Shown: piece by piece, positions 34,875 through 38,264 of the stretch
Numbering within the stretch: the first letter of the stretch is position 1
How the letters are laid out: every line of letters starts with the position of its first letter
Origin: Luteitalea sp.
GTDB lineage: Bacteria; Acidobacteriota; Vicinamibacteria; Vicinamibacterales; Vicinamibacteraceae
DNA length: 64,000 nucleotides
Direction: 5' to 3'
Assembly (NCBI GenBank): GCA_009377495.1
Contig: WHTZ01000013.1
Location: forward strand, 1-64,000
Notes under the pieces: generated by a model
Databases searched by the model: none
Told to the model about the DNA's origin: nothing
Seen by the model: only the letters and a program-made list of their open reading frames with translations
Translations under genes and position numbers: made by a program

Positions 34875-35747
34875 GTGGAACGTCACACGACGCTCTGGCG
34901 CCGGCTGGTGTGCGTCTGCGCACCTGCTATCCTCTCGTGGGGCCTCTTCGCAGCGCCGGGCGCGGCGCAGCAGCGACCCCTGGTCACCGAGGATCCGGAA
35001 ACCATCGGGAGTGGCAACATCCTCATCGAGGCGGGCGCTGACTACGGCCGCGACGTGTTCTATCCCGCGTCGGGGCTCACCGGTAACCGGTTGCGCCTGC
35101 CCACGCTCGGCTTGAGCATTGGGCTCAGTTCGATTGCTGAGCTGCAGTTCGATACAGGTCCCCACACGCGCCTGTCGATCACCGAGCGCGAAGACGCGCC
35201 CTTCACCAACGATCTCGAGATCGACGGCACCAGCACGCGCAGCTTCGACGACACGCTGGTTGGTCTGAAGATGCGACTGGTTGGCGAAGGGCCTGATCGC
35301 CCGGCCTTCGGCGTACGCTTGGCGACCCGTTTGTCGACGGCCAGCAAGTCGAGCGGACTGGGACTCGCCACAACGGACTTTCTCGTGCAGGCATTGGCCG
35401 CGAAGACGACGCAGTCGACCCGCGTCGTGGGTAATGTGGGCGTGGCCTGGCTCGGGAATCCCGTGGGCGGCGAGCAGAACACCGCCTTCTTGTACGGCGC
35501 CTCGCTCGCCAACGCTGTCGCGCCTGGCCTCGAGATCGTCGGCGAGCTGAACGGCCGGTTCGATACCGGGGAGACTCCCGCGCCGGCTGGGACCGAGAGC
35601 CGAAGCGCGCTGCGCGCGGGCCTGCGCCACACGCATGGTCCTGGACGCATCGACGGCGGCATCATTCTCGGTCTCACGGACAACGAGCCCGGCTTCGGCT
35701 TCACCATCGGCTATACCTACGTGTTCCACGCCTTCGCCGTGCCCTAG
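34875..35747 (+). CDS. putative outer-membrane transporter/porin-like protein
   Basis: 290 aa, GTG start with a strong GAGGAGGA ribosome-binding site. Signal peptide LSWGLFAAPGAAQQ. The mature protein begins VTEDPETIGSGNILIEAGAD, like barrel proteins annotated as 'transporter, phenol meta-pathway associated'. It alternates amphipathic strands and ends in GFTIGYTYVFHAF. Function is unknown. A TATGAT box 46 bp upstream is a plausible promoter. Confidence 0.72.
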   Translation: MERHTTLWRRLVCVCAPAILSWGLFAAPGAAQQRPLVTEDPETIGSGNILIEAGADYGRDVFYPASGLTGNRLRLPTLGLSIGLSSIAELQFDTGPHTRLSITEREDAPFTNDLEIDGTSTRSFDDTLVGLKMRLVGEGPDRPAFGVRLATRLSTASKSSGLGLATTDFLVQALAAKTTQSTRVVGNVGVAWLGNPVGGEQNTAFLYGASLANAVAPGLEIVGELNGRFDTGETPAPAGTESRSALRAGLRHTHGPGRIDGGIILGLTDNEPGFGFTIGYTYVFHAFAVP

Positions 35748-35780: not shown

Positions 35781-36602
35781 ATGGCCAAGCTGCACGTCAT
35801 CAAAGCGCACGCCTACGGCAACGACTTTCTCTACGTGCCGCGCGCCGACGCGCTCACCGCGTGTCCTGATCCGGCAGCGCTGGCACGCCGGTTGTGCGAT
35901 CGCCACACGGGCGTCGGTGCCGACGGCCTGATCCTCTACGCGCACACCTCCGAGGGCGCAGCGATGCGATTGCTCAATGCCGACGGGAGCGCGGCAGAAG
36001 TGTCGGGAAACGGCGTTCGCGGGCTTGCCGCGGTTGTCGCGAGGGCATGGCTCGACGCGCGGGAGATCGAGACGCCGACCGGTCGTACCATTGCCATTGC
36101 CACTGACGCCGGCCGCAAGCTACTCGAGCTGATGCAGGCTGACTCGAGCCACTGGTTCCTCTTTCGCGCCGACATGGGCGCGCCGCGGGACCTGCGTATG
36201 GTCACGCTCGACGTGGCGGGTGAGCGCATCGAGGTGGCGCAGCTCTCGATGGGTAACCCCCAAGTCGTCCTGCTGGCACCGCTCGACCCGGAACGACTCA
36301 TCCGTTTGGGCACGGCGTTGCAGTCGCATCCAGCATGTCCGGAAGGGACGAACTTCGAGATCGCCGAGGTTGAGTCACCGCGACAGGTGCGGATCCTCAT
36401 TTACGAGCGAGGCGTTGGACCGACCTCCTCGTCGGGCACGGGGTCATGCGCGGCGGCGGTCGCGGCGGCCGCGTTCAGCAGCGGTGCGCGCGACCTGCAA
36501 GTCGACGCGCCTGGGGGGGCCCAGCGCGTCGAGTGGCGCGACGGCACCGTGTACCTCACGGGCTGGGTCGAGGTTCTCTTCGAGGGGACGTGGCTCATGT
36601 AG
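35781..36602 (+). CDS. dapF: diaminopimelate epimerase homologue lacking both catalytic cysteines
   Basis: 273 aa, normal length and clear DapF fold: FIKAHAYGNDFL-like start (VIKAHAYGNDFLYV), RHTGVGADGLI, MRLLNADGSAAEVSGNGVRG, and ERGVGPTSSSGTGSCAAA. In DapF the two-base mechanism needs Cys in CGNG and CGTG. Here both positions are Ser (Ser75, Ser218). The nearest Cys is C223, five residues on. The enzyme may be inactive, slow, or a racemase of a different substrate. The symbol denotes family only. Confidence 0.8.
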   Translation: MAKLHVIKAHAYGNDFLYVPRADALTACPDPAALARRLCDRHTGVGADGLILYAHTSEGAAMRLLNADGSAAEVSGNGVRGLAAVVARAWLDAREIETPTGRTIAIATDAGRKLLELMQADSSHWFLFRADMGAPRDLRMVTLDVAGERIEVAQLSMGNPQVVLLAPLDPERLIRLGTALQSHPACPEGTNFEIAEVESPRQVRILIYERGVGPTSSSGTGSCAAAVAAAAFSSGARDLQVDAPGGAQRVEWRDGTVYLTGWVEVLFEGTWLM

Positions 36603-36720
36603 GGGTCAGGGGCAAGGGGCCAGGGCTGTCTCAGGACCAGGGAAAGGGCCCCAGACAGCCTAGCCCCTGCTCACTCCTGCCCTCGCCCCGCCCCTTGCCC
36701 CTTGCACCTTGCACCTACTC
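36603..36720. repeat. palindromic string element A
   Basis: Begins at the dapF stop and runs to the next start. The left half carries GGGGCAAGGGGCCAGGGCTG and TGTCTCAGG, the right half AGACAGCC and CGCCCCTTGCCCCTTGCACC, so the halves can pair. The core AGGGCTGTCTCAGG is shared with elements at 42004, 55681 and 57605. Confidence 0.75.
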
Positions 36721-36722
36721 TT

Positions 36723-38264
36723 ATGCGCACAGTGCACGAAGCCATTGGAGGCGTTGAAACTTACTCGCCCGCCGAGGAGCGCTTCAATCGTCGCCGACGT
36801 ACGTGGGGCCTCGCCCTGGCGCCGACCGTCTTTGCCTTGATCTGGGTGCTGCCGCTGCCGGCCCTTTCGGTGCCGGCGCATCGCCTCGCGGCGATCCTGG
36901 CGATGGTGGTCGTCCTCTGGATTTGTGAGTCGCTGCCCATGGCGATGACCGCGGTCCTCGGGCCCGTGCTCGCCATCGTGATGGGGGTCGCGCCAGCACG
37001 GGAGACCCTCGCACCTTTTGCAGATCCCATCATCTTCCTCTTCATTGGCAGCTTCATGCTCGCCGAAGCGATGTTCGTCCACAAAGTGGATCGCCGCATC
37101 GCTTTTACGGCGCTATCCTCGCGCTTCGTTGGAACGAGCGCCGCGCGCATGCTCGTCGTCTACGGCGGTGTAGCGGCTGTGCTCTCCATGTGGATGAGCA
37201 ACACGGCGACCACCGCCATGCTCTTTCCCATCGGACTCGCCATCGTGTCCCACGTGGCGCGCACGGCGCCGCGGCCCGCGGGCGCGAGCGTGGGCCGCTT
37301 TGCCCTCGCGATGATGCTCATGACGGCCTTTGGGGCGTCGGTCGGCGGCCTGGCCACGCCGGTCGGCACGCCGCCAAACCTCATTGGCATTGGGCTGATC
37401 GACCGGCTTCACGGCCTGCACATCGGCTTCTTCCAGTGGATGGCGGTGGGCCTGCCGGTGGCTGCCCTGCTGTTCGGCTTCTTGGCGCTGTACTTTTATC
37501 TGACCTGCGTGCGAGGGCGGGGGCTCACGATCGGCGAGGACAGCGCGGCGCTCGTCCGCCAGGAGCTGACCCGATTGGGTCCCATGTCGCGTGGGCAGCG
37601 CAATGTCCTGATTGCGTTCGGTGCGACGGTGGTGTTGTGGATGATACCGGGGTTGTTTGCGATTACAGGCCAGGGCAGCGCCGACTTCGCCAGAGCCTAC
37701 GCAGCTGCGGTACCAGAAGGCGTCGCCGCCATGCTCGGCGCCCTGTTGTTGTTCGTGCTGCCAGTCAACTGGCGGGCGCGGCGCTTCACGCTGAGTTGGG
37801 ACGAGGCCGTGCGCATCGACTGGGGTATCGTCCTGCTCTATGGGGGCGGTCTGGCGCTGGGCGAGCTGGCGTTCTCAACCGGTCTGGCTGAAACGCTCGG
37901 CCAGACGCTCACCGGATGGCTACCATCGCACACGGCCGTGACGCTCGCCGTGCTCTTTGCCGCAACCGCCATCCTGCTCTCGGAGACGACCTCGAACACC
38001 GCCTCGGCCAACATGCTCGTGCCCATCGCGATTGCCGTGGCGCAGGCAACCGGCGTCGATCCCGTGCTGCCGGCGGTGGCCGCCACGTTAGGTGCGAGCC
38101 TCGGGTTCATGATGCCGATTTCCACGCCGCCAAACGCCATCGTCTACAGCTCAGGCTATGTGCCCATCACCGCGATGATGCGGTATGGACTTGCGCTGGA
38201 CCTGGTTGGCTTCATCCTCATCGTTGGGCTCGTGCTCGCGCTCGCCCCGTTCGTGCTCCCGTGA
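36723..38264 (+). CDS. SLC13/DASS family sodium:dicarboxylate-type transporter
   Basis: 513 aa, about 12 membrane segments. Two signature repeats are present: SMWMSNTATTAMLFPIGLAI in the first half and SETTSNTASANMLVPIAIAV in the second, the S-N-T substrate/Na+ binding motifs of DASS transporters. FMMPISTPPNAIVYSSGYV is the family C-terminal block. It imports C4-dicarboxylates, citrate or sulfate; the motif alone does not decide. Confidence 0.9.
   Translation: MRTVHEAIGGVETYSPAEERFNRRRRTWGLALAPTVFALIWVLPLPALSVPAHRLAAILAMVVVLWICESLPMAMTAVLGPVLAIVMGVAPARETLAPFADPIIFLFIGSFMLAEAMFVHKVDRRIAFTALSSRFVGTSAARMLVVYGGVAAVLSMWMSNTATTAMLFPIGLAIVSHVARTAPRPAGASVGRFALAMMLMTAFGASVGGLATPVGTPPNLIGIGLIDRLHGLHIGFFQWMAVGLPVAALLFGFLALYFYLTCVRGRGLTIGEDSAALVRQELTRLGPMSRGQRNVLIAFGATVVLWMIPGLFAITGQGSADFARAYAAAVPEGVAAMLGALLLFVLPVNWRARRFTLSWDEAVRIDWGIVLLYGGGLALGELAFSTGLAETLGQTLTGWLPSHTAVTLAVLFAATAILLSETTSNTASANMLVPIAIAVAQATGVDPVLPAVAATLGASLGFMMPISTPPNAIVYSSGYVPITAMMRYGLALDLVGFILIVGLVLALAPFVLP

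Follow-up and report, generated by a model that had tools for sequence, protein, structure and literature searches.

A DapF homologue with serine at both catalytic cysteine positions is conserved across most sampled Acidobacteriota and is probably a diaminopimelate epimerase

In the 64,000-nucleotide stretch of Luteitalea sp. DNA analyzed here (hereafter the window), a gene on the forward strand (35781-36602) probably encodes the organism's diaminopimelate (DAP) epimerase, which would convert LL-DAP to meso-DAP with both catalytic cysteines replaced by serine (we give this reading a probability of roughly 0.75). The gene is a Ser/Ser variant inside the DapF sequence family and not a Cys/Cys DAP epimerase; its sequence family, its fold and its place in the pathway make the product a DapF, and the lack of the defining Cys pair sets it apart from the classical enzyme. 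Most of the sampled Acidobacteriota carry such Ser/Ser DapF proteins. The accepted explanation of cofactor-free racemases is a thiolate/thiol pair, and a working Ser/Ser DapF would challenge the textbook view of DAP epimerase chemistry.

The open reading frame starts with ATG and, with its stop codon included in the coordinates, encodes 273 aa. An in-frame TTG lies four codons 5' of this ATG, and the start at 35781 agrees with that of relatives; neither a ribosome-binding site nor a promoter can be clearly made out ahead of the gene. In the translation, the N-domain motif NADGSAAEVSGNGVRG places Ser75 (EVSGNGVR; codon TCG at 36003-36005, forward strand) at the position of the N-domain catalytic cysteine (Cys73 in Haemophilus influenzae and Cys75 in Anabaena DapF), and the C-domain motif YERGVGPTSSSGTGSCAA places Ser218 (TSSSGTGSC; codon TCG at 36432-36434, forward strand) at that of the C-domain cysteine (Cys217 and Cys224, respectively). 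These motifs and residue numbers are as a preliminary description of the sequence had given them. A third change, absent from that description, is Gln161 (GNPQ; codon at 36261-36263, forward strand), which stands where the GNPH motif has its conserved His (His159 in H. influenzae). The protein scores 171.1 bits against the DapF equivalog model TIGR00652 (cut-off 114.65) and 112.7 bits against PF01678, the sole family matched in a Pfam scan that returned no match to the proline racemase superfamily (PF05544). It is not a member of the bifunctional DapF/glutamate racemase family NF038284 (50.4 bits, cut-off 350). A viral origin was considered and rejected, as there was no relative with close patterns in viral contigs and no PHROG match.

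An AlphaFold model based on a 22-member alignment (pLDDT 96.1, pTM 0.92) predicts the two-domain DapF fold. The best solved match is inhibitor-bound DapF from Anabaena (9MRO, Z 35), followed by the inhibitor-bound Arabidopsis enzyme (3EJX, Z 34.5), with an rmsd of 2.0 over 256 residues for the top DapF matches; hydroxyproline epimerases, proline racemases and PhzF rank lower (Z 22-26), including the Agrobacterium vitis hydroxyproline epimerase 4lb0 (Z 24.5). Ser75 and Ser218 are modelled at the start of helices 76-92 and 219-232, the site of the cysteines in the Anabaena enzyme. In that enzyme the distal end of DAP is held by Asn66, Asn164, Asn197, Glu215 and Arg216 (PMC12039745); the corresponding contacts to the distal carboxylate and amine in the window protein are Asn66, Asn159, Asn191, Glu209 and Arg210, which are invariant in 78/78 members of the main acidobacterial clade described below. 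The protein thus resembles the Cys/Cys DapFs of Anabaena (9MRO), Arabidopsis (3EJX) and H. influenzae (1GQZ) in its two-domain fold (Z 28-35, ~30-37% identity), its Asn, Glu and Arg substrate residues, its TIGR00652 match and its pathway slot. It differs from them in having Ser at both catalytic Cys positions and Gln161 for His, and the Ser/Ser clade also often has Ser for Ala beside the second catalytic residue.

We searched the window protein against 199 genomes of its own phylum, and a profile built from 22 homologues against named genomes. Among the matches listed by the latter, Ser/Ser proteins occur in the window's own order and class, Terriglobia, Bryobacterales, Blastocatellia and Aminicenantes, with class names resting on named relatives and the tree; further Ser/Ser DapFs may occur outside the Acidobacteriota. 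Cys/Cys DapFs of a different subtype are found in some acidobacterial families. Two metagenomic bins labelled Arcobacter and Acidimicrobiia encode a DapF of the acidobacterial Ser/Ser kind, so these labels are doubtful. Across 225 DapF proteins the catalytic pair was Cys/Cys in 94, Ser/Ser in 88, Cys/Ser in 31 and Ser/Cys in 12. The preliminary description had proposed aligning acidobacterial DapFs for the Ser pair, and in the main clade Ser75 and Ser218 are both kept in 78/78 proteins, just as Cys is kept in 94/94 of the Cys/Cys set. These are the only invariant residues among the 14 serines of the aligned region (n = 78), and Asn14, Asn66, Asn77, Asn159, Asn191, Glu209 and Arg210 are likewise fixed in 78/78. 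Nine of the 88 Ser/Ser proteins use AGY rather than TCN at one or both sites (9/88 at Ser75, 1/88 at Ser218); therefore serine was either kept through changes of codon class or arose more than once. This pattern is one of strong purifying selection on serine at both positions. The description's statement that both thiols are gone while the fold and substrate residues persist was thus borne out by the translation, the 78/78 conservation, the AlphaFold model and the structure matches.

Little else separates the main clade from the Cys/Cys enzymes: the catalytic pair sets it apart and, less sharply, so do positions 84 and 17. Ser217 and Ser222, near Ser218, are enriched over Ala in the Ser/Ser clade, and no new basic residue that would compensate for the lost cysteines appears in the clade comparison. 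We considered whether a catalytic cysteine had been relocated and rejected both candidates, since Cys39 is invariant yet almost equally conserved in the Cys/Cys enzymes and Cys223 is not invariant in the clade. Position 161 is variable in the main clade (H 44, Q 31, N 2, V 1; n = 78). The active-site His is missing from 34/72 thinned Ser/Ser rows vs 3/55 Cys/Cys rows (Fisher p 1e-7); a coupling of its loss to the Ser/Ser pair was not established, as the tree gives just two to three independent contrasts.

The window's genome (6.5 Mb, 91% complete) contains a single DapF-family gene, which accounts for both PF01678 half-domain matches. In nearly all sampled genomes with a Ser/Ser DapF, this protein is likewise the sole DapF, including the single-contig complete genome of a member of the same family (G125), and therefore genome incompleteness is not the explanation. 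The meso-DAP dehydrogenase gene ddh was found in 0/30 acidobacterial genomes, that of the window among them, with two control genomes positive. The window's genome also has no DapL above cut-off and no PF05544 match, and the other main-clade genomes tested likewise yielded neither a Cys-type DapF nor ddh nor an above-cut-off DapL, although such homology searches are blind to an unrelated or PLP-dependent DAP epimerase. The preliminary description had suggested that the organism has another epimerase, and these searches of the window's genome (second DapF, ddh, DapL above cut-off, proline racemase) lend that no support. Nor did we find what it had named as evidence against its reading, a Cys-type DapF elsewhere together with loss of conservation in this gene.

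The window's genome has a contiguous cluster of asd, aspartokinase, dapB, dapA and dapD, of which dapA, dapB and dapD pass their models; its lysA passes TIGR01048; and its murE, like those of the other 14 genomes tested, carries DNPR, a motif characteristic of meso-DAP ligases. The dapD route leads to LL-DAP and LysA uses meso-DAP. Given the genes found around this step in the 91% complete genome (dapA, dapB, dapD, lysA and a meso-DAP-type murE), with ddh not found and no DapL scoring above cut-off, LL-DAP must be epimerised, and the window dapF is the only candidate epimerase of a known kind in the genome.

Gene order provides a further line of evidence in Terriglobia. At ~22 distinct loci a gene with mpl motifs lies ~1.6 kb downstream of the Ser/Ser dapF; in the loci that were read out, dapF is followed by an S66 LD-carboxypeptidase-type gene and then by mpl, which passes TIGR01081 in two of them. 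Mpl is the ligase that recycles L-Ala-gamma-D-Glu-meso-DAP, and this arrangement is independent evidence that the Ser/Ser enzyme belongs to meso-DAP metabolism. In the window, the gene upstream of dapF (34875-35747, forward strand) has a weak outer-membrane-type match (Phenol_MetA_deg), and the gene order dtd, outer-membrane-type gene, dapF recurs among relatives within the window's taxonomic order. Downstream (36702-38264, forward strand) lies a gene for a protein of the Na+/sulfate or citrate symporter family (PF00939, PF03600).

Thiols are far stronger acids than hydroxyls. Known enzymes work with a thiolate base and a thiol acid, whose pKa values in H. influenzae DapF are 6.5 and 8.5 (PMC12039745). 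Histidine racemase (HisR/CntK) and the 2,4-diaminobutyrate racemase PddB share the DapF-like fold and two-base chemistry but are naturally Cys/Cys, and replacing Cys by Ser removes most or nearly all of their activity: it is greatly reduced in HisR mutants (PMC11602996), and <0.1% is left in single PddB mutants (PMC8225329), which makes a natural Ser/Ser pair surprising. On the other hand, the proline racemase superfamily has known examples of a Ser/Cys pair. The 4-hydroxyproline 2-epimerase of A. vitis, of related fold, has a natural Ser at one acid/base position and is an active two-base epimerase (PMC4113996), although it belongs to another family, acts on another substrate and retains one Cys. 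The 3-hydroxyproline dehydratase of A. vitis (B9K4G4), a Ser/Thr enzyme with the DapF fold and no catalytic Cys pair, uses its Ser as the catalytic base; unlike an epimerase, it dehydrates its substrate, and its second residue, Thr, is in a non-catalytic orientation (PMC4113996). Searches of open-access papers turned up nothing on Ser/Ser DapFs, nothing on DapF in acidobacteria and nothing on the DAP chemistry of acidobacterial walls; as the literature coverage was that of open-access papers, we do not claim priority.

We favor the reading in which the window DapF makes meso-DAP for lysine and peptidoglycan. That the Ser/Ser protein has epimerase activity is quite likely, judging from its sequence and conservation, its predicted fold, its gene context and its status as the sole DapF of nearly all genomes that carry it. 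Ser75 and Ser218 would sit at the N-terminal ends of two helices, where the cysteines of known DapFs flank the substrate alpha-carbon from opposite sides, and the simplest reading is that a Ser alkoxide/hydroxyl pair operates inside the same closed pocket. A direct role of both serines as acid/base groups is accordingly our preference for the mechanism, held with somewhat less assurance than the activity itself. The preliminary description had posed a choice between another epimerase and different chemistry; a second enzyme was not found, and a third outcome, the same reaction with different catalytic groups, is favored here.

The main competing explanation, which we regard as unlikely, is that DAP epimerase activity has been lost, that the protein performs other chemistry on a DAP-like substrate and that meso-DAP is supplied by an unrelated enzyme, for example a broad-range PLP-dependent racemase. 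The near inactivity of the PddB and HisR Cys-to-Ser mutants speaks for it, as do the different reaction of the DapF-fold hydroxyproline dehydratase and three genomes of one family (f30) in which a Ser/Ser copy exists next to a Cys/Cys copy. It would, however, require such a replacement enzyme to be retained through most of a phylum, and it sits poorly with the failure to find a Cys-type DapF, ddh or an above-cut-off DapL in the tested main-clade genomes, that of the window included, with the retention of all mapped DAP-contact residues and with the mpl linkage in Terriglobia. Less probable still is that the protein is a DAP epimerase in which proton transfer falls to water, to a different side chain or to a chemical modification and the serines are place-holders only. 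Hydroxyls are poor general bases, and the enrichment of Ser217 and Ser222 over Ala, together with the relaxation of His161 to Gln, suggests a rearranged active site; but beyond the catalytic pair only positions 84 and 17 mark the clade, and these less sharply, no new base emerges as a candidate, and the invariant Cys39 is almost as conserved in Cys/Cys enzymes. The invariance of Ser75 and Ser218, together with AGY codons in some of the 88 Ser/Ser proteins, indicates, moreover, that serine itself is kept. Chance substitution, decay of the gene in one genome or sequencing error can be dismissed, given both serines in 78/78 homologues from many families, an intact frame and a TIGR00652 score well above cut-off.

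On a quick tree built without the two catalytic columns, 65 rows form the main Ser/Ser clade (SH-aLRT 96). Four rows make up another Ser/Ser clade far from it (SH-aLRT 100), whose neighbors are Cys/Ser proteins, and three rows a third (SH-aLRT 99) amid Cys/Cys proteins. Constraining all Ser/Ser rows together was rejected (p-AU 0.021, on this quick tree and for a group named after the data had been seen). The Ser/Ser pair thus seems, on moderate evidence, to have arisen more than once. An apparently independent origin is represented by the clade of ERGVE subtype (L060, L209, L210, L212, L214, L215, L217), in which Phe takes the place of the conserved His and the neighbors (L208, L222) are Cys/Ser.

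Single-Ser pairs are also fixed in some lineages. In the order of Oceaniglobus (Alphaproteobacteria), with one DapF per genome, 27/29 further loci are Cys/Ser and two are Cys/Cys. The Cys/Ser proteins (L159, L249-L273, L275, L277) have the motifs ACGNATRC ... ASGSSSCAT, and the presence of Cys/Cys relatives (L274, L276) beside them indicates that the second catalytic Cys was lost or regained within one order. The mirror image, Ser/Cys, is fixed in part of another phylum (centered on G200; L162, L279-L288, L290).

On balance we lean, with less confidence than for the window gene, toward a general picture in which working two-base DAP epimerases without a thiol extend through the phylum, evolved more than once from Cys/Cys enzymes via single-Ser intermediates and show that thiols are dispensable for cofactor-free DAP epimerisation. 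If true, a lineage living with Ser at both positions of an enzyme for an essential step would show that much of the catalysis rests with the active-site frame and not with the thiol, or would uncover a hidden compensation. For inhibitor design, aziridino-DAP traps Cys thiols, and Ser/Ser enzymes should then be labelled poorly. The natural series of Cys/Cys, Cys/Ser, Ser/Cys and Ser/Ser enzymes is a ready set for measuring the contribution of each thiol.

Outside the main clade, a Ser/Ser homologue can be an extra gene and may have a second role. The three f30 genomes (L057 in G065, L247 in G106, and G076) encode, besides the Ser/Ser copy, a Cys/Cys DapF (FCSNG ... CCGTG), and L229 (G192) is grouped with these cases of coexistence; in G065 the Ser/Ser copy adjoins an M20 deacylase gene. 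The Ser/Ser DapFs of another family, f33 (L211, L220, L227, L228), may have drifted in function, to judge from their motifs: the Arg after SGNG is gone (SGNGMA) and SGTG has become SSTG.
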